NCBI GenBank assembly: GCA_021414365.1
Contig: JAIOOR010000006.1
Location: 1 to 64,000, forward strand
Source: Nitrosarchaeum sp.
GTDB taxonomy: Archaea; Thermoproteota; Nitrososphaeria; Nitrososphaerales; Nitrosopumilaceae
Length of the DNA: 64,000 nucleotides
Direction of reading: 5' to 3'
In this document: positions 1,023 to 56,702 of the stretch, in pieces
Layout of the letters: every line of letters starts with the position of its first letter
Position numbering within the stretch: position 1 is the first letter of the stretch
Translations under genes and position numbers: made by a program
Notes under the pieces: generated by a model
The model's database searches: none
Seen by the model: only the letters and a program-made list of their open reading frames with translations
Told to the model about the DNA's origin: nothing

Positions 1023-3800
1023 TTGAAATTTCATATTTTCATACTATTAACAATCATGATTTTTGGAATTACTGTTAGCACTACACCCCAAACAATCTTT
1101 GCGCAAGTTAATACCAATCAAGATTTGGCAGTAGTAAGTATTAATGGACATACCGATGGAATTTCTACTGGTACAGTTTACATTTATGATGCAAATTATA
1201 CTTTGATCAGAGTTCTAGACAGCCCTGAGGAGAAAGTTTTAGGACAATTTAGTGGAGACATCCTCTACAAAAACAACAAGTTAATTCTATCAACTCCATC
1301 CAGGGTAAACACTAACATAAAGTCTGATGCTGGACCACTAAAACAAGAAGGCGCAGTATCAATTTTTGACGGTACAACTGGCTCTTTGATTAAAACCATT
1401 TCAAATCCACAACCAAACACAGTCAAGGACTATGTTGGTGGCACGTTTGGTTCATCTGTTACTTATGCTGGAAACAAAATAGTGATTGGAAATCCAAATC
1501 ATGACATAAACGGCGTATATGCAGCAGGAACAGTCTACATATACGATGATGTAGGAAATTTGCTATCTACAATAGAAAATACAAATCCTGTTGACTCTGA
1601 TAACTTTGGAACATCACTTGCATCTTTGGAAGATAAAATCATAATTGGAATTCCTAACAAGGTAGTAGGTGATTATACCTATGCAGGGATCGTATCAATC
1701 TATGATGTAAATTCAGGTAATCTACTAAAGACCATAAAAAATCCAAATCCTTCAACAAATGCAAAGTTTGGCTCTATACTTGACATTTCAGAAAACAAAT
1801 TGTTGGTAACATCTGCTACTGCATCTGTTAATGGTGATGAAAATGTTGGGGAGGCGTATCTGTTTGATGTAAATTCAGATAATCTACTAAAGACCATAAA
1901 AAATCCAAATCCAAATGAAGGTGATATGTTTGGAAGATCTGCACTTTTTGCTGGAGACAAGATTGTGATTAGTGCAATTGGGGATGGAGTGTTTGATGAG
2001 GGTTCTGTGTATGTTTTTGACTCAGATGGTAAATTGTTAAACACAATACATAGCCCACAACAAACTCCAAAATCAGGATTTTACTCAAATGAATTTGGTA
2101 TCTCACTTGCAGTATCTGGAAACAGACTTGCTGTGGGTGATGATAATAAAATGACAAATGATGTACAAGCAGGTGGCGCATACATATTTGACATTACGAC
2201 TGGAGAATTGCTTCAGACAATTGTCAATCCAGCATCTAGTCCTGATGCATTTGGATATTATCTAGAGTTTGTTGGGGATATAAAGCCGTCTCCTGATACC
2301 GTCTCAAAAATAATTAAACAGCATGAAATTTCATCTGCAGAATCTACAGTCATTGAAAGTTCCGATAATGAGGTTTGGATTGAGCCAAAACAAGATTCTG
2401 TAAATAGTTTTGTCGGAACTTTACAGTATGACAAAATTCCAGAAAATTTCAAATGCGACATTACTCCAAAAATTAATTATCAATATGTTGAGAAAAATCA
2501 ACATGCTCAGTATCCAGAGTATGATTCGTTATTTGTCAGAATAGGTGGAGAAGAGACAATAAAAGACTTGCAGATGATTATTGGCTTGTGGAATGAAAAA
2601 GATAAAGCATATGCCAAGGATTTATCATTTCACATAATTCTAAAGAATCAAGACGGTTCTGATAGAATGGGCGCAATATACAGCCCAGATGCATACTCTG
2701 ATTATTCTACCTTAGGTTTAGCTATTGAAGCAAACAGCAATACAAACAAAGATGGAATTGTATCGCCTGATATAGAGAAAAAATTTGCCGCATTATTTGG
2801 CAGTGATTATGTTGTTCCAGTAGGAATCAAATCCAATGGCGAATATCAACTGTTTATCCGAGCATTTGATTCAGAAGATGACTGGATAAGCGCAGATACA
2901 TGTGGACTGCAAGCTATTGTTCCAATCATCGTTAATGGCGAAGATGACGTGACTGTTGGAAAGATCCAATTCAGTAACATTTTGGTGTCCCCAACTGACA
3001 CAAACCATGAAAATTTTGAGCTCAGCAAACAACATGTGCTTGATGCAGTAGCGCATAAAAATAATGAATCTGTTCTATCTGAACAAAAATCAAAAGACAA
3101 TATAACAAATATTTCAAAATCAGAACACATCTCCCCAAGAAAACAATTCAATGCAGGTGCAAGAATAGATAAAATCCAGTGCAATGAATCCCTTCAAACA
3201 ATATTGAAAACTGATGGTACTCCTGTATGTGTAAAACCAGATTCAATTGAAAAATTAAGAGAGCGCGGATGGACAAACTCCAAGATACTCTCAGATGAAC
3301 TTGTACGTGAAAAATTATTGGAATTGACAGGACTCTTGGAAAGCGGCAATGTGGCAGAATTCAACGAGATAAGAACAGAACTAGTGGCATTTGTTTTGCT
3401 AGAAAGAGTTGACGCTGCAGGAATGAATCTTGACGGGATAAATCTTGAACATATATCACTACCAGGGGCAAACTTGCATAATGCAACCCTCAAAGGCGCA
3501 AACATTGGTAATGCGGACTTGTCAAACGCCAATTTACAGGGCTCGGATTTGAAAGGCGCAGACTTGTCATACACTAGATTGTGGGGAGCAAATCTTCACG
3601 GGGCAAACTTGCAAGACTCTAACTTGGAGGGAGCTTCTTTTAGAAGCGCTGATCTGACTCTAGCTAATTTACAAAATGCGAATTTAAAAAACGCTGATTT
3701 TCCAATAACTGCCAATCTATCAAATACTGATTTTTCAAATGCAAAGAATTTTCCGATATCAATTAATGAGGCAATAAAACGCGGGGCTTTGGTGGATTAA
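1023..3800 (+). CDS. Exported beta-propeller protein with C-terminal pentapeptide repeats
   Basis: 925 residues from a TTG start. A signal peptide covers about residues 1-27. Residues ~35-420 hold seven repeats built on (G)xVYIYD...LLKTIxNPxP...FGxS, which looks like a seven-bladed FG-GAP-type propeller. A middle region of unknown fold follows. At ~720-752 is a Cys...ProValCysVal...ArgGlyTrp motif shared with four neighbouring exported proteins. Residues ~801-905 are pentapeptide repeats of the A(N/D)LxxA type, predicted to form a right-handed quadrilateral helix. It is probably a surface or S-layer-associated binding protein; the ligand is unknown. Blades 4 and 5 are nearly identical at DNA level. 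Confidence 0.85.
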   Translation: MKFHIFILLTIMIFGITVSTTPQTIFAQVNTNQDLAVVSINGHTDGISTGTVYIYDANYTLIRVLDSPEEKVLGQFSGDILYKNNKLILSTPSRVNTNIKSDAGPLKQEGAVSIFDGTTGSLIKTISNPQPNTVKDYVGGTFGSSVTYAGNKIVIGNPNHDINGVYAAGTVYIYDDVGNLLSTIENTNPVDSDNFGTSLASLEDKIIIGIPNKVVGDYTYAGIVSIYDVNSGNLLKTIKNPNPSTNAKFGSILDISENKLLVTSATASVNGDENVGEAYLFDVNSDNLLKTIKNPNPNEGDMFGRSALFAGDKIVISAIGDGVFDEGSVYVFDSDGKLLNTIHSPQQTPKSGFYSNEFGISLAVSGNRLAVGDDNKMTNDVQAGGAYIFDITTGELLQTIVNPASSPDAFGYYLEFVGDIKPSPDTVSKIIKQHEISSAESTVIESSDNEVWIEPKQDSVNSFVGTLQYDKIPENFKCDITPKINYQYVEKNQHAQYPEYDSLFVRIGGEETIKDLQMIIGLWNEKDKAYAKDLSFHIILKNQDGSDRMGAIYSPDAYSDYSTLGLAIEANSNTNKDGIVSPDIEKKFAALFGSDYVVPVGIKSNGEYQLFIRAFDSEDDWISADTCGLQAIVPIIVNGEDDVTVGKIQFSNILVSPTDTNHENFELSKQHVLDAVAHKNNESVLSEQKSKDNITNISKSEHISPRKQFNAGARIDKIQCNESLQTILKTDGTPVCVKPDSIEKLRERGWTNSKILSDELVREKLLELTGLLESGNVAEFNEIRTELVAFVLLERVDAAGMNLDGINLEHISLPGANLHNATLKGANIGNADLSNANLQGSDLKGADLSYTRLWGANLHGANLQDSNLEGASFRSADLTLANLQNANLKNADFPITANLSNTDFSNAKNFPISINEAIKRGALVD
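1704..1750 (+). repeat. Direct repeat copy A (propeller blade 4)
   Basis: This 47-nt segment inside the propeller gene matches 1866-1912 at 46 of 47 positions, 162 nt (54 codons) apart and in frame. It encodes most of DVNSGNLLKTIKNPNP. Such DNA-level identity points to recent blade duplication or gene conversion. Confidence 0.9.
1866..1912 (+). repeat. Direct repeat copy B (propeller blade 5)
   Basis: Second copy of the 47-nt repeat at 1704-1750, with a single G-to-A difference that changes Gly to Asp (DVNSDNLLKTIKNPNP). Confidence 0.9.
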
Positions 3801-3858
3801 AAGACATGCAAAATTATAGAATATTTTATGAATTTCATATCATGCATACAATGAGATA

Positions 3859-5043
3859 ATGAAATATTTTATTATATTATTAATTTTGGTTGGATTTGGT
3901 ATGCCTGTATTTGCAGAAACAGGATTAACCGAGACTTCAGTACTTACAGAGATCAAAATTATTGAATTTGGCATGTTTGATTCTGAGGATTATGAAAACA
4001 TGGTGCATCAACTATATGTTGGTAAAAAGTATTGGTTTTGGTTTGAATATCAGAATGAATCAGAAAAACCTCAGGACATTGAAGAATTTGTGAAATTAAT
4101 AGACAAGAACAAGACTAAAGATAACATTTTACAAAAAATTGAAGGTTCTACTACGCTTGAATCCTTCAAGGGTTTAGGTAGTGGCTTTAGTTGGACTCCA
4201 GAATATGTTGGCGAGTTTGAAATTACTGCCAAGGTAATCTCGCCTGATGATTCTCTTGTAGGTGTAATCGCGCCACAATATGATCTAGTTGTAATAGAAA
4301 GACCGTTACTAAAACAGCAGCTCCAAAATCAAGTTCCTATCGACAATGTTTTGTGCAAAAAAAGCGACCATTTCCTATCTGAGAGAACAAACAAAAAACT
4401 TGCATGTGTCTCCTTGGATGCTGCCAAAAAATTAGGCTGGAAGCTTGTTCACTTTGAAGAAATAATTTTGGATCCTGCCACAAAAGAATCCCTGTTGGAA
4501 CGCTACAGTGATTTGCCTGAAGTTGTAGCATTTTATGAAAAGTATCCTGATACAATAGAGGAGATCAGAGATGATCACATCTCATATGTGACTGGAAGCG
4601 ATGAGGGCTTTAAAGTTAGGATGAAGCTGTTTTTTGATGAAAATTATGAACTTGATCATATTGATTTTAATTGCTATTTTCAAAGAGAACACCAGAACGA
4701 TGTCCCTGAGAGTTTTATCCTTAGATACTTGAAGGATTTTGAGTGTGAAAAGCGTTCTGCACCTGCAATTGTGATAATACCATACGGTTCGGCAAGTCCT
4801 GAAAACCAATTCCATCTAATTCCAGAGGAGATTACCGTAGTTTTGGGGAAAAACAGCACTGTTATGTGGAGAAATCAAGATGACTTTCCCTCTACCCTCA
4901 CTTCTGACTCTTCTGGTTGGTCAACAGGAGTGATAAATCCAGGAGAGAGTGCTTATGTGATGTTTAATGAAACAGGTGTCTATCCATACCATGGAGAACC
5001 CCATCCTTGGAAAGTTGGCAAAGTGATTGTACTAGCAGATTAG
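3859..5043 (+). CDS. Exported protein with Cys motif and degenerate cupredoxin domain
   Basis: 394 residues with a signal peptide ending near residue 19 (VFAET). Residues ~166-196 carry a divergent version of the Cys...CysVal...LGW motif shared in this cluster. Residues ~305-394 have the layout of a small blue-copper (cupredoxin) domain: ITVVLGKNSTVMWRN, W-x-TGVINPGES, then YPYHGEPHPWKVGKV. Compared with the usual plastocyanin-type site, the first His is Ser, the Cys position is Gly (a His sits one residue before) and the Met is Lys; only the HPW histidine remains. Type 1 copper binding is therefore doubtful. Four nt separate it from the next gene. Confidence 0.8.
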   Translation: MKYFIILLILVGFGMPVFAETGLTETSVLTEIKIIEFGMFDSEDYENMVHQLYVGKKYWFWFEYQNESEKPQDIEEFVKLIDKNKTKDNILQKIEGSTTLESFKGLGSGFSWTPEYVGEFEITAKVISPDDSLVGVIAPQYDLVVIERPLLKQQLQNQVPIDNVLCKKSDHFLSERTNKKLACVSLDAAKKLGWKLVHFEEIILDPATKESLLERYSDLPEVVAFYEKYPDTIEEIRDDHISYVTGSDEGFKVRMKLFFDENYELDHIDFNCYFQREHQNDVPESFILRYLKDFECEKRSAPAIVIIPYGSASPENQFHLIPEEITVVLGKNSTVMWRNQDDFPSTLTSDSSGWSTGVINPGESAYVMFNETGVYPYHGEPHPWKVGKVIVLAD

Positions 5044-5046
5044 AAA

Positions 5047-5277
5047 ATGAAAGCCATACTTTTGATAATTATTACATTTACATTCTTTCCTTTGGTTATT
5101 TCTAATGTTTCAGCAATGTGTGCAGCAGACACAATGGAATGGTGGGAACCTTGTAATGACACAGGATCCTATCGTGATGGCATTTACATCAAATACTTAA
5201 TTCTTATTCCACTCTTAACTGTAATAATCTTAGTCATAGGAATTGTTTCATTAGTTTATTGGAGAAAAAGAAAATGA
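5047..5277 (+). CDS. Small exported protein with C-terminal membrane anchor
   Basis: 76 residues: an N-terminal signal peptide (MKAILLIIITFTFFPLV...), a short loop with two cysteines and the acidic/aromatic segment MEWWEPC, then a transmembrane helix ending in YWRKRK. The anchor plus basic tail places the loop outside the cell. The last codons overlap a 15-codon remnant ORF (5274-5321). The C-terminal anchor and tail closely resemble those of the 7302-7820 protein, suggesting a shared origin. No function can be named. Confidence 0.7.
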   Translation: MKAILLIIITFTFFPLVISNVSAMCAADTMEWWEPCNDTGSYRDGIYIKYLILIPLLTVIILVIGIVSLVYWRKRK

Positions 5278-5321
5278 AAACTATATTTTTGATAATTTTG
5301 GCTGTATTTGTATACAGTTAA
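5274..5321 (+). pseudogene. Truncated signal-peptide ORF, gene remnant
   Basis: The ATGA overlap with the 5047 gene starts an ORF of only 15 codons (MKTIFLIILAVFVYS, then TAA). It is a good match to the first part of the signal peptides that begin other genes of this cluster. The same anchor/ATGA junction is repeated intact at 7817, where it opens a 344-residue exported protein. I infer that a downstream gene was lost here, leaving its start. About 110 nt of AT-rich sequence follow before the next gene. Confidence 0.5.
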
Positions 5322-5441
5322 CCCCATTTATTCAAAGTTCCTTTTGCATATTATATGAAAATGCTATATTCCTCAAAAGTGATAAAAGATACGAAAAACT
5401 TAAAAGATAAAATTCAAAGTTTTTAGAATGGCATGGTTGAA

Positions 5442-6908
5442 ATGAATTCTAAAATTCTATTAGGGTTTGTTTTATTTTCAAGTTTGATTTTTGTTTTTAA
5501 CCCTGCATTTGCCAACCCCATTGACGATACACATAGTGTTTCATATGGTAAAGTTGGAACAGCAGTATCACTTGGCGCTCATATACAAAATCCGCATGAT
5601 TATCCTGTATCTGCATCAATAGAGTTTGTCTTTGAAGATATAGACAGTGGAAATTACTGGGATGACAAAAAGCATACAGGTACAGCGGATGCCAATTCCA
5701 ATTTTGTAACTAATCAGTCATATTTTTTCAAAAATACTGGCAAGTTTTTCATCCATTTTGTATATGAAATTGATGGAAAACTAATCAAGGATCGTCAAAC
5801 TACGGAATTTATAATTTTCAAAGAATACTCTGATGCTGCACTAAACGGGTGTAGTCCAGAACATAAATTTGTGATAAAGCCAAACTATGGCAAAGCCGTA
5901 TGTGTGTTTGATGATACAATTCAAAAACTAGTCCAAAGAGGATGGGTTGGCAACAACCTTACAGAAGTAAAACATGATTCTGAAAATTACGCTCCCATAA
6001 TTGAAATAGCAGTTGATCCATCTGATAGTTTTTATTTTTCAGGTGATGATATTGTGATTACTGGTAGTGTCTGGGCTTCTGAAAAAACAGACCTGCAAAA
6101 ATCCCCTGTTCTCATCCAAGTTGGTTTTGAAGATGAACTAGTTGATATTGCACAGGTACAATTATCCCCCGATGGAACTTTTTCACATCATCTTAAAGCC
6201 TTGGGACCGTTATGGCAACAAAGTGGTATTTACACAATAACTGCATCATATGATGCTGGATCTGTTGCTCATAATACATTTGGTTTTTCAACATACTATC
6301 AGAATAATGCTGAGGGGTATTTTGCAAATTTAGATGCTAATAATTATGAAGATCTTTGCGGATACCCTGTAACTCATGAAATGAGGAAAGATATTGTCGA
6401 ATCTCTAAAGCAGCGACATGATGATACAGTTTCACTTGTGGAATTAAACCAAGGGGTTTTCACGCATGTGGATCGTTCATTATATTTGACTGACATGCCT
6501 CGTTTACAATATTGGTATGAAATAAAGGATGGAAAGCAGGTATACTTTGAAATTGATGCGTGTGCATTTGATAACTCTCAAACAACCTATGTACAACTTG
6601 GTCCAAATTATGAACAATCACAAGACATCATTATTGACGGTGTTCATCATAACATACTTCCTGCACCTGGCTCTCCCTTGATTTACAAAGACTCTCTTCT
6701 TCCTGTACTAGACATTGATAACTGCCAAAGAGTTGCAGATAATTACACAAAAGAAGAACGATCAAAACTATTCACACGTGAAACCACTACTTTTGATGCC
6801 GCATGGGAAAATCAGGTATTTCCTTTAATGGATTACTGTACCGGCATTGGAACCTATGAATTAAAAACCCATGATGGAAACATAAACTGGAGTTTCACAG
6901 AAAAATGA
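5442..6908 (+). CDS. Exported protein of unknown function with cluster Cys motif
   Basis: 488 residues. The ATG at 5442 is preferred over 5433 because it gives MNSKILL, matching MNSKLFL at the start of the next gene. The signal peptide ends near PAFAN. Residues ~20-130 look like a beta-rich, Ig-like domain; residues ~137-170 carry the Cys...AVCVFDD...KLVQRGW motif; a second beta-rich domain (about 180-290) follows. The C-terminal ~200 residues have several cysteines and no family I recognise. The stop overlaps the next start by 4 nt (ATGA), so translation is probably coupled. Confidence 0.75.
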   Translation: MNSKILLGFVLFSSLIFVFNPAFANPIDDTHSVSYGKVGTAVSLGAHIQNPHDYPVSASIEFVFEDIDSGNYWDDKKHTGTADANSNFVTNQSYFFKNTGKFFIHFVYEIDGKLIKDRQTTEFIIFKEYSDAALNGCSPEHKFVIKPNYGKAVCVFDDTIQKLVQRGWVGNNLTEVKHDSENYAPIIEIAVDPSDSFYFSGDDIVITGSVWASEKTDLQKSPVLIQVGFEDELVDIAQVQLSPDGTFSHHLKALGPLWQQSGIYTITASYDAGSVAHNTFGFSTYYQNNAEGYFANLDANNYEDLCGYPVTHEMRKDIVESLKQRHDDTVSLVELNQGVFTHVDRSLYLTDMPRLQYWYEIKDGKQVYFEIDACAFDNSQTTYVQLGPNYEQSQDIIIDGVHHNILPAPGSPLIYKDSLLPVLDIDNCQRVADNYTKEERSKLFTRETTTFDAAWENQVFPLMDYCTGIGTYELKTHDGNINWSFTEK

Positions 6909-7249
6909 ATTCTAAATTATTCTTGTTTGTAATTGCAGGTTTGATTATGTTGCCTTATTTTACATATGATGTACTTGCACAACCTTTGCAAAAAGTAAAT
7001 GCAGATGTAATTGAATTTGATGGTACATTTGCAACAGTTGAGATTTCATGGAAGGATAATGGCGCATCATACTATGAAGTTGGTTGTGTGAGCTGCATGC
7101 CAAACTTGTCAGATACTACAACTGAAAACTTGCTGGTTCTAAGCAATGTCACTGCTTTTGCTAATGGCGATGCACTCCTTTATGTTGTAGCATATGACAA
7201 AAATTCTGAGATAATCACAGCAACACAAATTATTGTGAAATTAGCCTGA
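6905..7249 (+). CDS. Small exported protein with CxxC
   Basis: 114 residues, signal peptide of about 26 residues ending YDVLAQ, then a short beta-rich domain like a single Ig/FN3-type fold (TFATVEISWKDNGASYYEVG) with one CxxC (GCVSCMP). It starts within the stop codon of the 5442 gene. Function unknown; the coupling implies it works with that protein. Confidence 0.7.
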   Translation: MNSKLFLFVIAGLIMLPYFTYDVLAQPLQKVNADVIEFDGTFATVEISWKDNGASYYEVGCVSCMPNLSDTTTENLLVLSNVTAFANGDALLYVVAYDKNSEIITATQIIVKLA

Positions 7250-7301
7250 TAATTATCAAAGAATATGATACTATGTATTCAAACAAATGATGATGTAAAA
7301 A

Positions 7302-7820
7302 ATGAAAACTAGGTTTTTAATCTTACTTAGTTTTTTGCCATTGATTTCATTTATTCCTCATAATGCATATGCTTGTTCTTGCGATGGATATCCTGACTAT
7401 TTACGAACTTTGATGGAATCAAGTTCTGCATTTCAGGGAACCGTAACAAAAATCATAAAAAATGATGTCTATGAAGAAATTTATTTTGATATTACTTTTC
7501 CACAAAAAGGAATTTCGTTTACTGATGAATACATGATTAAACAGACTAATCTTAGTAGTTGTGCAGTTAATTACAATGTTGGTGAAACCTATCAGGTCTT
7601 TATGTATGATGGAGATGGAATACGTGGTACAACTAATATGTGCAGTACAAAACAAATTACTGGCTTTAGTGAATATTCATATGAAGATGAGAATGGTCAA
7701 CTAGAACATTATAGAGAAGATTACAATATTTTTACTCAATACAATCTAGGAACCATAATTATCCCTGCAGCTATAGTAATAATAATTCCAAGTATTGTTG
7801 TTTGGAGAAAAAGAAAATGA
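7302..7820 (+). CDS. Membrane-anchored NTR/TIMP-like exported protein
   Basis: 172 residues. After the signal peptide the mature chain would begin at or near CSCDGYPDY, then SSAFQGTVTKI, a beta-strand ladder, SSCAVNYNVGETYQVFMY and a late CSTK. A Cys-x-Cys start followed by an OB-like barrel and paired cysteines is the plan of netrin/TIMP (NTR) domains. A C-terminal helix ending VVWRKRK anchors it in the membrane. The TIMP-like call is by fold pattern only; a protease-inhibitor role is not implied. Its last codons overlap the next start. Confidence 0.65.
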   Translation: MKTRFLILLSFLPLISFIPHNAYACSCDGYPDYLRTLMESSSAFQGTVTKIIKNDVYEEIYFDITFPQKGISFTDEYMIKQTNLSSCAVNYNVGETYQVFMYDGDGIRGTTNMCSTKQITGFSEYSYEDENGQLEHYREDYNIFTQYNLGTIIIPAAIVIIIPSIVVWRKRK

Positions 7821-8851
7821 AAATTGTATTGCTAGTTATGTTTGTTTTATTGTTTGTATCTGTGTTTTTGTTTGCAGATGCAAGATCAATTTCACCATTT
7901 TCATTCAACCTTGCAGAAGAGATAGAGTACAATGATCTTTACTTTTACGTTGAGGGTGGCAAGGCAAACATCAAGGTAGACAACGGAGAGTCGGTCACAT
8001 TTCCAATACTCATAAAATCAAGTAACTCAGGAACCACAGTTGATTTTCATACCACAATTGGCAACGATCAGATTGGTCCCATCAAATTCCCACATGGAAC
8101 AAGCATCCAACTGGAGCCCAACCAGCTTAAACTTGATGGAACCGACCAAATACTTAACATAACAATTCATGTGTCTGATAACGCACATTCTAGCAAATAC
8201 GATGTTAGCTTGGTTGGGGTGTGGAAGGAGGAAGGAAAGATTTCCGACTTTACGGGGACTTCTTTTTCACTTCACGTGGGAAGGGATTTTGGGGATAATG
8301 CCATACCTATCAATTTCTTAATGCCTCCACTAAAATTTGTAAAGGAAGGCATATCTCCTGAAGAGATTCCTTGTAGGAATGATTTGATTTTGATTCTAAA
8401 GTACGACGATTCTCCTGTGTGTGTAAAAGAGGAGACAAAACTCAAGCTGATTGAACGTAGATGGATGAAGATGCAGGTTGATGTACTTGATGATGATGCA
8501 TTCATTGAAGGCACAAAAAAGCTGGACTCTGTTCAGTATTTCTTGTCTTTGTATCCTAACGCAGAAATCAGCATAGACAAAGAATGGTATACGGTAACAT
8601 ATTCTGAATCTGGATTTATAGAACAAGATTCAGGTCGTTACGAACCAATTCGAACCAAGAAATTAGCAATCAACTTGGATTATGATGGAAAACTAGTACC
8701 TTACATGATTGAATGTGGTGGTCCAATCTCCTTATCGATTCATGAACTAGAACCATTGTTGGAGCATTTGTACAATCCTGATTGGTGCTTTCCACTTGAT
8801 CAATCTCAATTTGATTCACTTGACAAAAAGGATTTAGAAAATGAAAATTAG
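7817..8851 (+). CDS. Exported protein with cluster Cys motif
   Basis: 344 residues from the ATG at 7817, which overlaps the previous stop (ATGA); the TTG at 7802 would add only a lysine-rich stub before the signal peptide, so I reject it. Signal peptide ~1-22. Residues ~25-155 look like an Ig-like domain (VTFPILIKSSNSGTTVDF), similar to archaeal envelope proteins. Residues ~186-217 carry Cys...SPVCVKEE...LIERRW. The rest is beta-rich and unrecognised. It overlaps the next gene by 11 nt. Confidence 0.75.
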   Translation: MKIVLLVMFVLLFVSVFLFADARSISPFSFNLAEEIEYNDLYFYVEGGKANIKVDNGESVTFPILIKSSNSGTTVDFHTTIGNDQIGPIKFPHGTSIQLEPNQLKLDGTDQILNITIHVSDNAHSSKYDVSLVGVWKEEGKISDFTGTSFSLHVGRDFGDNAIPINFLMPPLKFVKEGISPEEIPCRNDLILILKYDDSPVCVKEETKLKLIERRWMKMQVDVLDDDAFIEGTKKLDSVQYFLSLYPNAEISIDKEWYTVTYSESGFIEQDSGRYEPIRTKKLAINLDYDGKLVPYMIECGGPISLSIHELEPLLEHLYNPDWCFPLDQSQFDSLDKKDLENEN

Positions 8852-9140
8852 ATTTTTAATAATAATTCTTGTTGGAATTATTTCCCTCCTGACATCTCTG
8901 ATTGTCTTGCAAACCTTTGCTGAATCAAAAGAATTGGTTTGTTTACGACTCTACAAAGACATTAACGAGTTATCTCGTAGTGCTGAAATGTCTATTGCAG
9001 AAAATGAAACAGTGTACAAACACAAAGTTTTGATATTTGAATATGTGGAAAAAGCATGCCCTGATTTTCAAGATTTAAAATCTATTTACAATAATTACAA
9101 ACAAACCTATCCTATAATGGATGAAAATGAATTAAAATGA
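8841..9140 (+). CDS. Small exported or membrane-anchored protein
   Basis: 99 residues: a long hydrophobic N-terminus (about residues 4-27, signal peptide or anchor), then a charged, mostly helical segment with two cysteines (LVCLRLYKD and KACPDF). It sits inside the coupled run: 11-nt overlap upstream, 4-nt ATGA overlap downstream. No family recognised. Confidence 0.6.
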   Translation: MKIRFLIIILVGIISLLTSLIVLQTFAESKELVCLRLYKDINELSRSAEMSIAENETVYKHKVLIFEYVEKACPDFQDLKSIYNNYKQTYPIMDENELK

Positions 9141-10270
9141 AAACCAAATTTCTGATATTGCTTGCAATTGTTTTCACTGTTATTTTTCCATCGTTTGCGT
9201 ATGGTCTTGTCATGCCAATGACTGCTCAGGAAGTACTTGATGAATTTGACATGATCCTTCTTGGAACAGTAACTGATGTAAAAATAATCAATGGCAAAGC
9301 ACCTGTGTTTACAATAGAAATTGAAGATGTGGTAAAAAAGCCAGACTCTTTTGGAATGTCTAAATCTGTCTTGGCAACTGGATGTAATCCAAATAAAGGA
9401 CATATAGGCACTCCTTGTCCATCATATGAGATAGGTGACAGGGGGCTGTTCCTACTTGCAGGCACTGACAACAACTATGAAGTTTCTTTTTACTCTCGAG
9501 TCGCGAAACCCAATTGCACTTCAGAAGAGTTTCTTGCAAATTACAGAGGTTTAGAATATGGCTTTTTCTTGACGCAAGATGAACAGTCAAAGACATTCTT
9601 TACTGGAAAACCAATTGACATGTACTATAATGTAAACAACAGAGACATGAAAGAAGAAGAGTATTCTGTTATGTTTTCTGCAAATTCTGGCAAATTCGCA
9701 TATTCTAATGTAGTAAACGGTACTGTCAATGAATGTGTAGGGTCTAAGATGATTACCACATCATTTGTTCCAACAGTGATGGGAGTATACGGCTTTAATG
9801 CAGGCTCTGAGGGCGTTTATGGAATATCGATAATTGATCATGGCGCAACCCCATTGAAGCAGTACAAGGCAGGAATACATGCACAGGATACATGGTGTAA
9901 GGAGGATCTTCTTTTGGTTTTAATGCATGACGATACTCCAAATCTAATTTTTGACAACAAGCCAGCATGTGTAAAGCCTAACACCATATCGAATTTCTCA
10001 GAGCGAGATTTGATTGAGCTTGCGTCTTTTTACAATAACAGACCTTTGATTGAGAGATTGTATGTTGGCATGGAAATCTTGAGATTGTCAGACATTCCAA
10101 TCAAAGTGATGGGGCTGTATGAACAAGATCAAGTTTTGGGGGTTATGATTGACAAGGATGAATTAAATAAAATCCCAAATGCTGAAGATTATTTTGATAG
10201 AATTATCAGAGAAGCAATTCCGTTTAATGTCCCTCTGAAAATAACATTTGATAAATACTGGGGAGGATAG
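9137..10270 (+). CDS. Exported protein: NTR/OB-like domain plus cluster Cys motif
   Basis: 377 residues, signal peptide ending near FAYG. Residues ~28-130 (FDMILLGTVTDVK..., then GCN...PCPSYEIGDRGLFLLAG) share the layout of the NTR-like domain in the 7302 protein. A middle beta-rich segment (~150-240) ends in GVYGFNAGSEGVYG. Residues ~254-285 carry the Cys...PACVKPN motif, here followed by SERDL rather than RGW. It is last in the coupled exported-protein run. Function unknown. Confidence 0.75.
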   Translation: MKTKFLILLAIVFTVIFPSFAYGLVMPMTAQEVLDEFDMILLGTVTDVKIINGKAPVFTIEIEDVVKKPDSFGMSKSVLATGCNPNKGHIGTPCPSYEIGDRGLFLLAGTDNNYEVSFYSRVAKPNCTSEEFLANYRGLEYGFFLTQDEQSKTFFTGKPIDMYYNVNNRDMKEEEYSVMFSANSGKFAYSNVVNGTVNECVGSKMITTSFVPTVMGVYGFNAGSEGVYGISIIDHGATPLKQYKAGIHAQDTWCKEDLLLVLMHDDTPNLIFDNKPACVKPNTISNFSERDLIELASFYNNRPLIERLYVGMEILRLSDIPIKVMGLYEQDQVLGVMIDKDELNKIPNAEDYFDRIIREAIPFNVPLKITFDKYWGG

Positions 10271-55241: not shown

Positions 55242-56702
55242 TTATTGAAATGGATCTATGATTGGGCTGTTTATCACATATTGCTCATTCATTGTACGAG
55301 CTAAACTTACTAAAATTTGGTCATGAGATTTTGACAAATTGATATCATACACAGTTTCAAGAATTTTGGCATTTTCTGGATTATTCCATTCTACATTGAA
55401 TATACGCCATATAGGACTGTAATTTTCATCACCAGGTACTACAGAAATTATCCCTGCTTGAAATCCTAAAGGTCCTAAACTTTTAATTCCATTTTTAAAT
55501 TGGAATAGATCAGATTTAGAGGAATTTGTGATTAAATTTTCAGATGAGGGTGAGAATGGTATTCCCATTAATTTAGCTGGGCCGGAGGGTGTTGCATCAG
55601 TAATTATGTAATAAATTGTTTTTCCATCTTGTCCCCATCCTCTATGAGCAACAAATGTTACAGTCATCTCATCTTTGTTAATTTCAGTTATTTGACCACC
55701 GTCAAATGTTAAATTATCTGTGATTTCTTTGTCATCTCTGACAAGCATCTGCCCATCGGGCCAGATTATTTGAGGAGTGTTAATCACTACTCCAGTTTTA
55801 TTAAATTCAACTCTTCCATTTTTTTCTGCATTTATGACATCGTCATATGATTCAAGGATTGTTGCATTTTGACCTTTTTTCCATGTTACTTCAATAACAG
55901 AATTTAGTGCATTGTATTTTATTTCCTGAGAAGGTGTACTAGAAAAAATTTCTTTTTGGCGTCCATATATTCCATCTCCATTAACTCCATTCTTAAAAAC
56001 AAATATTGTTTGTAGAACATTTTCAGATATATTTTTCATCGCTGGCGCAACTTCAACTTTCCATCCTTGTTTTTTAGTAATTATTTCTGCATATTCTTTC
56101 TGACTAGAATCTGTTATAATATAGAAAACGGAATTTCTGTTATAGAACCCTTCATGCATTGGAATAGATGCAGCAATGTTTGCATTTGATAATATTAGTG
56201 GTGGATTCTTTTGTACTTCAATTTTTTGCATGGTAATCTCAGTTGATTGTCCTCTAATCCAGCCATCAACACTTACGGTAGAAGTAAATTTTTTGGAATT
56301 GGGAGAATATAATGCCAAGGCAGCTCCTGTAAAATCAATTGAACCAGATTTATCTTTGAGATCAATTAGAGACATTGCATAAACGGTTTTCCCATCAATA
56401 GTCCATGTTGGTTGACCCTGTGCATCATTGTTATTGATTTCATGTAAGACTACTACCTCTACAGGTTCGCTTGATGTAAATGTCATTGAACCATGATAAA
56501 GAGTACCCTGATTTGGTGATAAGATTAGTGCTAATTGATTATTTTCATTTCCTTGTCCAGGATCTTGAGAAGAGATTATTGTTTTGGTAAAATTAATTTT
56601 TTTTGTAGAATTTGCATTAACAAAATTATCAGAAACAAGTGAAATCGTTAGAGCACCTACGATAAAAATGCCTAGAATTAGAATAACTGCAAACTTGTTC
56701 AA
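55242..56702 (-). CDS. Exported protein with two homologous domains
   Basis: 486 residues with a signal peptide (~1-28). Two related blocks: SVFYIITDSSQKEYAEI...QTIFVFKNGVNGDGIYGRQ...VTWKKGQNATILESYDDV, and TIYYIITDATPSGPAKL...DLFQFKNGIKSLGPLGFQ...VEWNNPENAKILETVYDI. So it is an internal duplication of about 150 residues. A beta-rich region (~30-170) precedes them. Surface-exposed, function unknown. Confidence 0.75.
   Translation of the reverse strand: MNKFAVILILGIFIVGALTISLVSDNFVNANSTKKINFTKTIISSQDPGQGNENNQLALILSPNQGTLYHGSMTFTSSEPVEVVVLHEINNNDAQGQPTWTIDGKTVYAMSLIDLKDKSGSIDFTGAALALYSPNSKKFTSTVSVDGWIRGQSTEITMQKIEVQKNPPLILSNANIAASIPMHEGFYNRNSVFYIITDSSQKEYAEIITKKQGWKVEVAPAMKNISENVLQTIFVFKNGVNGDGIYGRQKEIFSSTPSQEIKYNALNSVIEVTWKKGQNATILESYDDVINAEKNGRVEFNKTGVVINTPQIIWPDGQMLVRDDKEITDNLTFDGGQITEINKDEMTVTFVAHRGWGQDGKTIYYIITDATPSGPAKLMGIPFSPSSENLITNSSKSDLFQFKNGIKSLGPLGFQAGIISVVPGDENYSPIWRIFNVEWNNPENAKILETVYDINLSKSHDQILVSLARTMNEQYVINSPIIDPFQ

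Follow-up and report, generated by a model that had tools for sequence, protein, structure and literature searches.

WING-49 in exported proteins of Nitrosopumilaceae: alternation with membrane tails and a possible role in surface docking

The closest described systems with which the proteins considered here can be compared are the PEFG-CTERM and other transmembrane tails of Thaumarchaeota (TIGR04296) and the NCBIfam "choice-of-anchor" families. The latter are defined by their host domain, one and the same domain being combined with alternative surface-attachment modules, and the anchors in question are known ones such as LPXTG or PEP-CTERM. In this study, we consider five neighbouring exported proteins encoded between positions 1,023 and 10,270 of a 64,000-nucleotide stretch of Nitrosarchaeum sp. 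DNA (GenBank contig JAIOOR010000006.1, positions 1 to 64,000; the whole stretch is hereafter called the window). As judged by profile scores, all five are further members of an already catalogued domain, WING-49 (NCBIfam NF058652.1), whose entry gives no function and which is unmentioned in the literature searched. In homologous host proteins WING-49 alternates with membrane tails, an alternation that was not found described in that literature and is new here. We tentatively favour the reading that WING-49 is a docking module, by which soluble exported proteins may be retained at the cell surface in a non-membrane manner.

WING-49 resembles the PEFG-CTERM and transmembrane tails in that, among homologous hosts, it is exchanged for the anchor and occupies its place. 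It differs from them in being a soluble, folded module with two cysteines and no hydrophobic helix, and in that it can also stand N-terminally or internally. With the choice-of-anchor families it shares the pattern of homologous hosts carrying alternatives (two in the OB/NTR-like family, three tails in the glucose/sorbosone dehydrogenases), whereas the alternative is here WING-49, a putative attachment module. The choice_anch models are weakly matched by two transmembrane-tailed relatives of the hosts, and PEFG-CTERM is weakly recognised on several transmembrane-tailed homologues.

Alternation with membrane tails

Two host families illustrate the alternation. In the OB/NTR-like family, 10 members carry WING-49 and 8 a C-terminal helix, with none carrying both and none carrying neither. 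In the glucose/sorbosone-dehydrogenase (GSDH) family, with a few fragmentary or very long sequences left unassigned, 11 proteins have WING-49, 11 a second, unnamed module and 5 a tail of the transmembrane or PEFG-like type, with no protein combining any of these. The GSDH tree holds at least four tail changes; two of its transmembrane-tailed proteins (L272 and L277) are placed inside the WING clade, and both derive from genus g9, where WING-49 was found in none of the four genomes searched. The initial annotation had proposed a shared anchor or an interaction with one surface partner, and it is because WING-49 and C-terminal transmembrane or PEFG tails are mutually exclusive that we tentatively favour this proposal. 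The idea that every WING-less relative carries a membrane tail was ruled out by the DUF7482 and small cupredoxin relatives, which lack WING-49 and tail alike.

The second module, of about 35-45 residues and like WIKNNADWWSQGLISNDDFLKGIEYLVSNGIIVV, recurs at the C-termini of exported proteins, often in tandem (L035:7558-8337, L035:6395-7162, L043:3434-4078 and the tails of the GSDH proteins L255-L275). In the dehydrogenases, its core is W..(N)..WW or WY, after which comes a helix of the form G/A-i-x-y-L-i-x-x-x-II. The module had no match among Pfam or NCBIfam models, and it was found together with WING-49 in 0 of 216 cases.

The same picture is obtained when exported proteins are considered at large. 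By a hydropathy rule, an N-terminal export-like segment is present in 151 of 153 WING-49 proteins versus 240 of 534 neighbouring genes, the background genes being the flanks of WING-49 loci plus the window; the module is thus much commoner in exported proteins, a check that the initial annotation had suggested. In 144 of the 153, the signal peptide is the only membrane segment. A C-terminal transmembrane helix occurs in 2 of 146 WING-49 proteins versus 46 of 175 exported neighbours, and after clustering of the hosts (tighter clusters) in 2 of 78 versus 27 of 131 (p = 1.3e-4). Within 20 host clusters that contain both kinds of protein, the helix is found in 0 of 60 WING-49 proteins versus 11 of 35 WING-less homologues. 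Where WING-49 is not itself C-terminal, 103 proteins are without the helix and 2 have it. The five window proteins all begin with a hydrophobic signal-like segment, and in none of them was a C-terminal PEF motif with a transmembrane helix found, whether PEFG-CTERM (TIGR04296) or another anchor.

The module and its predicted fold

The five proteins, which we refer to as the 1023, 3859, 5442, 7817 and 9137 proteins, are all encoded on the plus strand, and their shared segment matches NF058652.1 above the curated cut-off of 22 bits (NCBIfam release 20.0, June 2026). The 1023 protein (1023-3800; 925 residues) has FG-GAP-type propeller repeats and C-terminal pentapeptide repeats besides WING-49, which scores 68.2 bits at residues 705-751 (3135-3275; QCNESLQTILKTDGTPVCVKPDSIEKLRERGW). 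In the 3859 protein (3859-5043; 394 residues), an N-terminal region and a C-terminal cupredoxin domain (residues 320-391) accompany a divergent copy at residues 152-193 (4312-4437; 23.4 bits). The copy is internal in the other three. The 5442 protein (5433-6908; 488-491 residues), which is without a Pfam family, matches over profile positions 16-48 only (residues 137-169; 5850-5948; 31.4 bits). The 7817 protein (7817-8851; 344 residues), which has no Pfam family above the cut-off, scores 57.9 bits at residues 171-217 (8327-8467), and the 9137 protein (9137-10270; 377 residues) 41.9 bits at residues 239-291 (9851-10009), with a hairpin longer by 8 residues. No Pfam model covers the WING-49 segment in any of the five, and neither SLH, LysM and dockerin nor other named surface-binding domains of Pfam matched the segment in these proteins and 20 others of the same genome.

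The motif from which this work started, a Cys, 15-22 residues, CysVal and then KL..RGW, is present in all five proteins, with a true gap between the cysteines of 15-23 residues (15, 16, 16, 15 and 23 in the 1023, 3859, 5442, 7817 and 9137 proteins, respectively). It corresponds to the second two thirds of WING-49, and left out the PLKQ..sG start about 15 residues N-terminal of the first Cys, with which the module comes to about 49 residues; the accompanying remark that no named domain exists is superseded by the June 2026 release of NCBIfam. The consensus is (S)PLKQfksGi.p.divC.egL.LviK.sdgsPACVkpeT..KLieRGWa. Its PLKQ..sG part can be clearly recognised in the 1023, 7817 and 9137 proteins and partly in the 3859 protein, and it is absent from the 5442 protein. 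The Trp element reads RGW in the 1023 and 5442 proteins, LGW in the 3859 protein and RRW in the 7817 protein; it is missing from the 9137 protein, which reads SERDLIEL and is without the final GW. Among 203 distinct copies, both cysteines are kept in all 201 complete ones, and Pro5 (96%), Gln8 (97%), Gly12 (89%), Leu46 (91%), Arg49 (87%), Gly50 (89%) and Trp51 (92%) are also conserved. There is one copy per open reading frame in 209 of 209, and none has two.

AlphaFold modelling of the 7817 segment (53 sequences) gave a mean predicted local distance difference test score (pLDDT) of 85.8 and a predicted template modelling score (pTM) of 0.62, with a helix at 5-10, strands at 24-29 and 34-38 and a helix at 39-47. 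For a mature hydrolase orthologue (25 sequences; pLDDT 88.6, pTM 0.88), the corresponding elements lie at 7-12, 26-31, 37-41 and 42-50, plus a short strand at 54-56. WING-49 is thus predicted to be an independently folding alpha-beta-beta-alpha mini-domain, consistent in the two contexts, and the consistent fold for which the initial annotation had advised looking was obtained. In this mini-domain, a short helix and a loop precede the first Cys, and a beta-hairpin holding the second Cys leads on to a helix and R-G-W. Since the two cysteines are conserved together as a pair, it is most likely closed by one internal disulfide. A search of PDB sequences with the 53-row WING-49 profile returned no match at E-values up to 5, and Foldseek found no fold match in the PDB for the domain (best E about 1). 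Some 22 residues of its Cys-bearing beta-hairpin overlay the N-terminal hairpin of follistatin and SPARC (PDB 3hh2, 2v53) at 0.6-1.3 Å; the likeness concerns the hairpin part only, with E-values above 1 and no sign of homology. When hydrolase and WING-49 were submitted together, the Foldseek matches were to dienelactone hydrolases (232-241 residues) and thus concerned the enzyme part only.

Hosts, genomes and gene neighbourhood

The genome to which the window belongs (1.88 Mb) has 27 WING-49 stretches in about 26 genes, encoding 26 distinct proteins. By BLAST, 235 of the 325 pairs of these proteins match through the module alone, versus 17 of 325 (15 separate groups) once the module is masked and the signal peptides are removed, so that the sharing of the module far exceeds chance; together with the export signals, this bears out the original idea of one module shared by exported proteins that are otherwise unrelated. 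The hosts comprise propellers with pentapeptide repeats, cupredoxins, a dienelactone hydrolase, BNR/sialidase-like proteins and DUF7482 proteins and, in relatives, glucose/sorbosone dehydrogenases. The position of the module is free, being internal in 76 cases, C-terminal in 51 and N-terminal in 30. In fusions of the types propeller-WING-hydrolase and small domain-WING-hydrolase, it lies exactly at the domain joint. Near-complete dienelactone-hydrolase orthologues retain it at the N-terminus in 26 of 26, with a mean identity of 56% in WING-49 versus 62% in the enzyme. A second DUF7482 protein is encoded on the minus strand of the window (55251-56192) and shares 35% identity with the DUF7482 protein of this genome that bears WING-49.

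In a 398-genome sample of the phylum, WING-49 was found in 58 of the 63 genomes that belong to the window's family versus 1 of 335 others, and it was absent from 14 well-known control genomes. About 85,000 species genomes were scanned with one conserved peptide pattern, which therefore captures close copies only; of the 75 confirmed loci, all but two are in Nitrosopumilus, Nitrosarchaeum, Nitrosotenuis, Nitrosotalea and other Thaumarchaeota, the two exceptions being labelled Alphaproteobacteria. A wider range into the Alphaproteobacteria was rejected, as these two loci (L108 and L110; metagenome-assembled genome OFTM68) are probably mis-binned archaeal contigs: both contigs have 33-34% GC, and L108 has 83% DNA identity over 488 bases to a Nitrosopumilus locus, L110 not being among the matches listed. 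WING-49 is almost entirely confined to Nitrosopumilaceae. Copies per genome increase with genome size (Spearman 0.62, counts of 16 or more being taken as 16), and none was found in the genomes searched of genera g9 (0/4) and g165 (0/3).

Of the 17 WING-49 loci in the window's genome, 11 are no more than 10 kb away from a contig end versus about 28% expected (binomial p = 0.0016), on contigs C1, C2, C4, C5, C11, C12, C22, C24, C25 and C26; the assembly may break here because these loci are variable or repetitive islands. A lone WING-49 remnant resembling that of the 5442 protein forms a 51-residue open frame (L024:1465-1617; C25:35005), perhaps a decayed gene.

Between 5433 and 10270, the genes share one strand, neighbouring genes overlap by 4, 4, 11 and 4 bases, and there is a single gap of 52, so that they probably form one operon. 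Three exported proteins without WING-49 are interleaved among its WING-49 genes, all on the plus strand. Two are small, and apparently members of the operon: one (6905-7249) overlaps the preceding gene by 4 bases, and the other (8841-9140) has overlaps of 11 and 4 bases. The third (7302-7820), which overlaps the next gene by 4 bases, has an OB/NTR-like domain, NTR-like being assigned by eye, a C-terminal transmembrane helix and a WRKRK tail. Homologues with such a helix and a WRKRK-type tail are also interleaved with WING-49 genes at L018, L033, L040, L064 and L092. The 9137 gene (9137-10270) and two others of the same genome (L036:9298-10254 and L032:10316-11455) are recent paralogues with 77-82% identity.

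Proposed surface docking and its rivals

According to the docking reading, the host protein would be exported via Sec and its signal peptide removed. WING-49 would then hold the otherwise soluble host on the cell surface or within the pseudoperiplasm, and we infer that it would bind one common partner, such as an S-layer, glycan or lipid-linked component, thereby standing in for a C-terminal membrane helix or a sortase-type PEFG tail. N. maritimus possesses an S-layer protein and, at lower abundance, a homologue of SlaB that bears a C-terminal helix (PMC11153153), and these two are the obvious candidate partners.

Several points weigh against docking. The absence of transmembrane segments is also compatible with freely secreted proteins, and most DUF7482 members and small cupredoxins are exported with neither WING-49 nor a transmembrane tail. 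Retention modules such as SLH and LysM are often repeated, whereas WING-49 never is. With looser, single-linkage clustering, which places 106 WING hosts in one group, the C-terminal helix is found in 1 of 28 versus 16 of 101 (p = 0.12). Many of the sampled proteins are related and hence non-independent, and the transmembrane and signal calls are hydropathy heuristics. Finally, the copy number of WING-49 varies from 0 to over 20 and tracks genome size, so that the module does not belong to the basic equipment of the cell envelope.

A purely structural role would require no binding partner: as a disulfide-stiffened cap or spacer, WING-49 would guard termini or set the distance between extracellular domains. 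That the module separates domains in roughly half of the proteins and is terminal in the others agrees with this, as do the hydrolase fusions with WING-49 right at the joint, but we consider it unlikely, given that spacers are usually repeated or freely lost, whereas WING-49 is single in 209 open reading frames and is conserved nearly as well as the enzyme core in one orthologue set. A cap would also leave the absence of membrane tails unexplained, including where the module is N-terminal or internal. That absence, namely a signal peptide without other membrane segment in 144 of 153 proteins, would be accommodated if WING-49 marked proteins released to the medium as secreted public goods, either by protecting them or through an export or release factor, and hydrolases, sialidase-like and sugar-dehydrogenase-like enzymes are indeed among the hosts. 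Against such release, which strikes us as distinctly improbable, cupredoxin hosts are expected to act near the membrane, and the homologous dehydrogenase is membrane-anchored in g9 genomes lacking WING-49, which suggests that association with the cell is useful.

The two invariant cysteines of this extracytoplasmic module could also form mixed disulfides with a surface partner, the clip proposed in the initial annotation, or act as a thiol switch. They are always paired (201/201), no complete copy having one alone, which is what an intramodule bond would lead one to expect, so that a clip or switch now appears very improbable. Least credible of all is a removable prodomain, or an inhibitor or lid of the host; the N-terminal position in the dienelactone-hydrolase orthologues would suit it, but in most hosts WING-49 is internal or C-terminal, and these include beta-propellers and Ig/OB-like domains that have no active site to cover.

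Returning to surface docking, a more specific form of it can be formulated, which we regard as possible if somewhat doubtful: a non-covalent surface-docking code specific to Nitrosopumilaceae, in which a single disulfide-closed WING-49 would replace membrane or sortase-type tails and recruit dozens of unrelated exported proteins to one envelope receptor, the second module (W-I-K-x-N-A-x-W-W ... G-I-q-f-L-I-k-x-x-I-I) being a further alternative. Although ammonia-oxidizing archaea rank among the most abundant microbes, next to nothing is known of how proteins are arranged on their S-layer-covered surface. Were WING-49 only a stabilising cap, the matter would be an ordinary one. If it docks proteins to one receptor, at least 20 uncharacterised proteins per genome would become an addressable surface proteome, a bait of 49 residues could serve to retrieve the receptor, and a common logic would emerge for the variable surface islands of these archaea.

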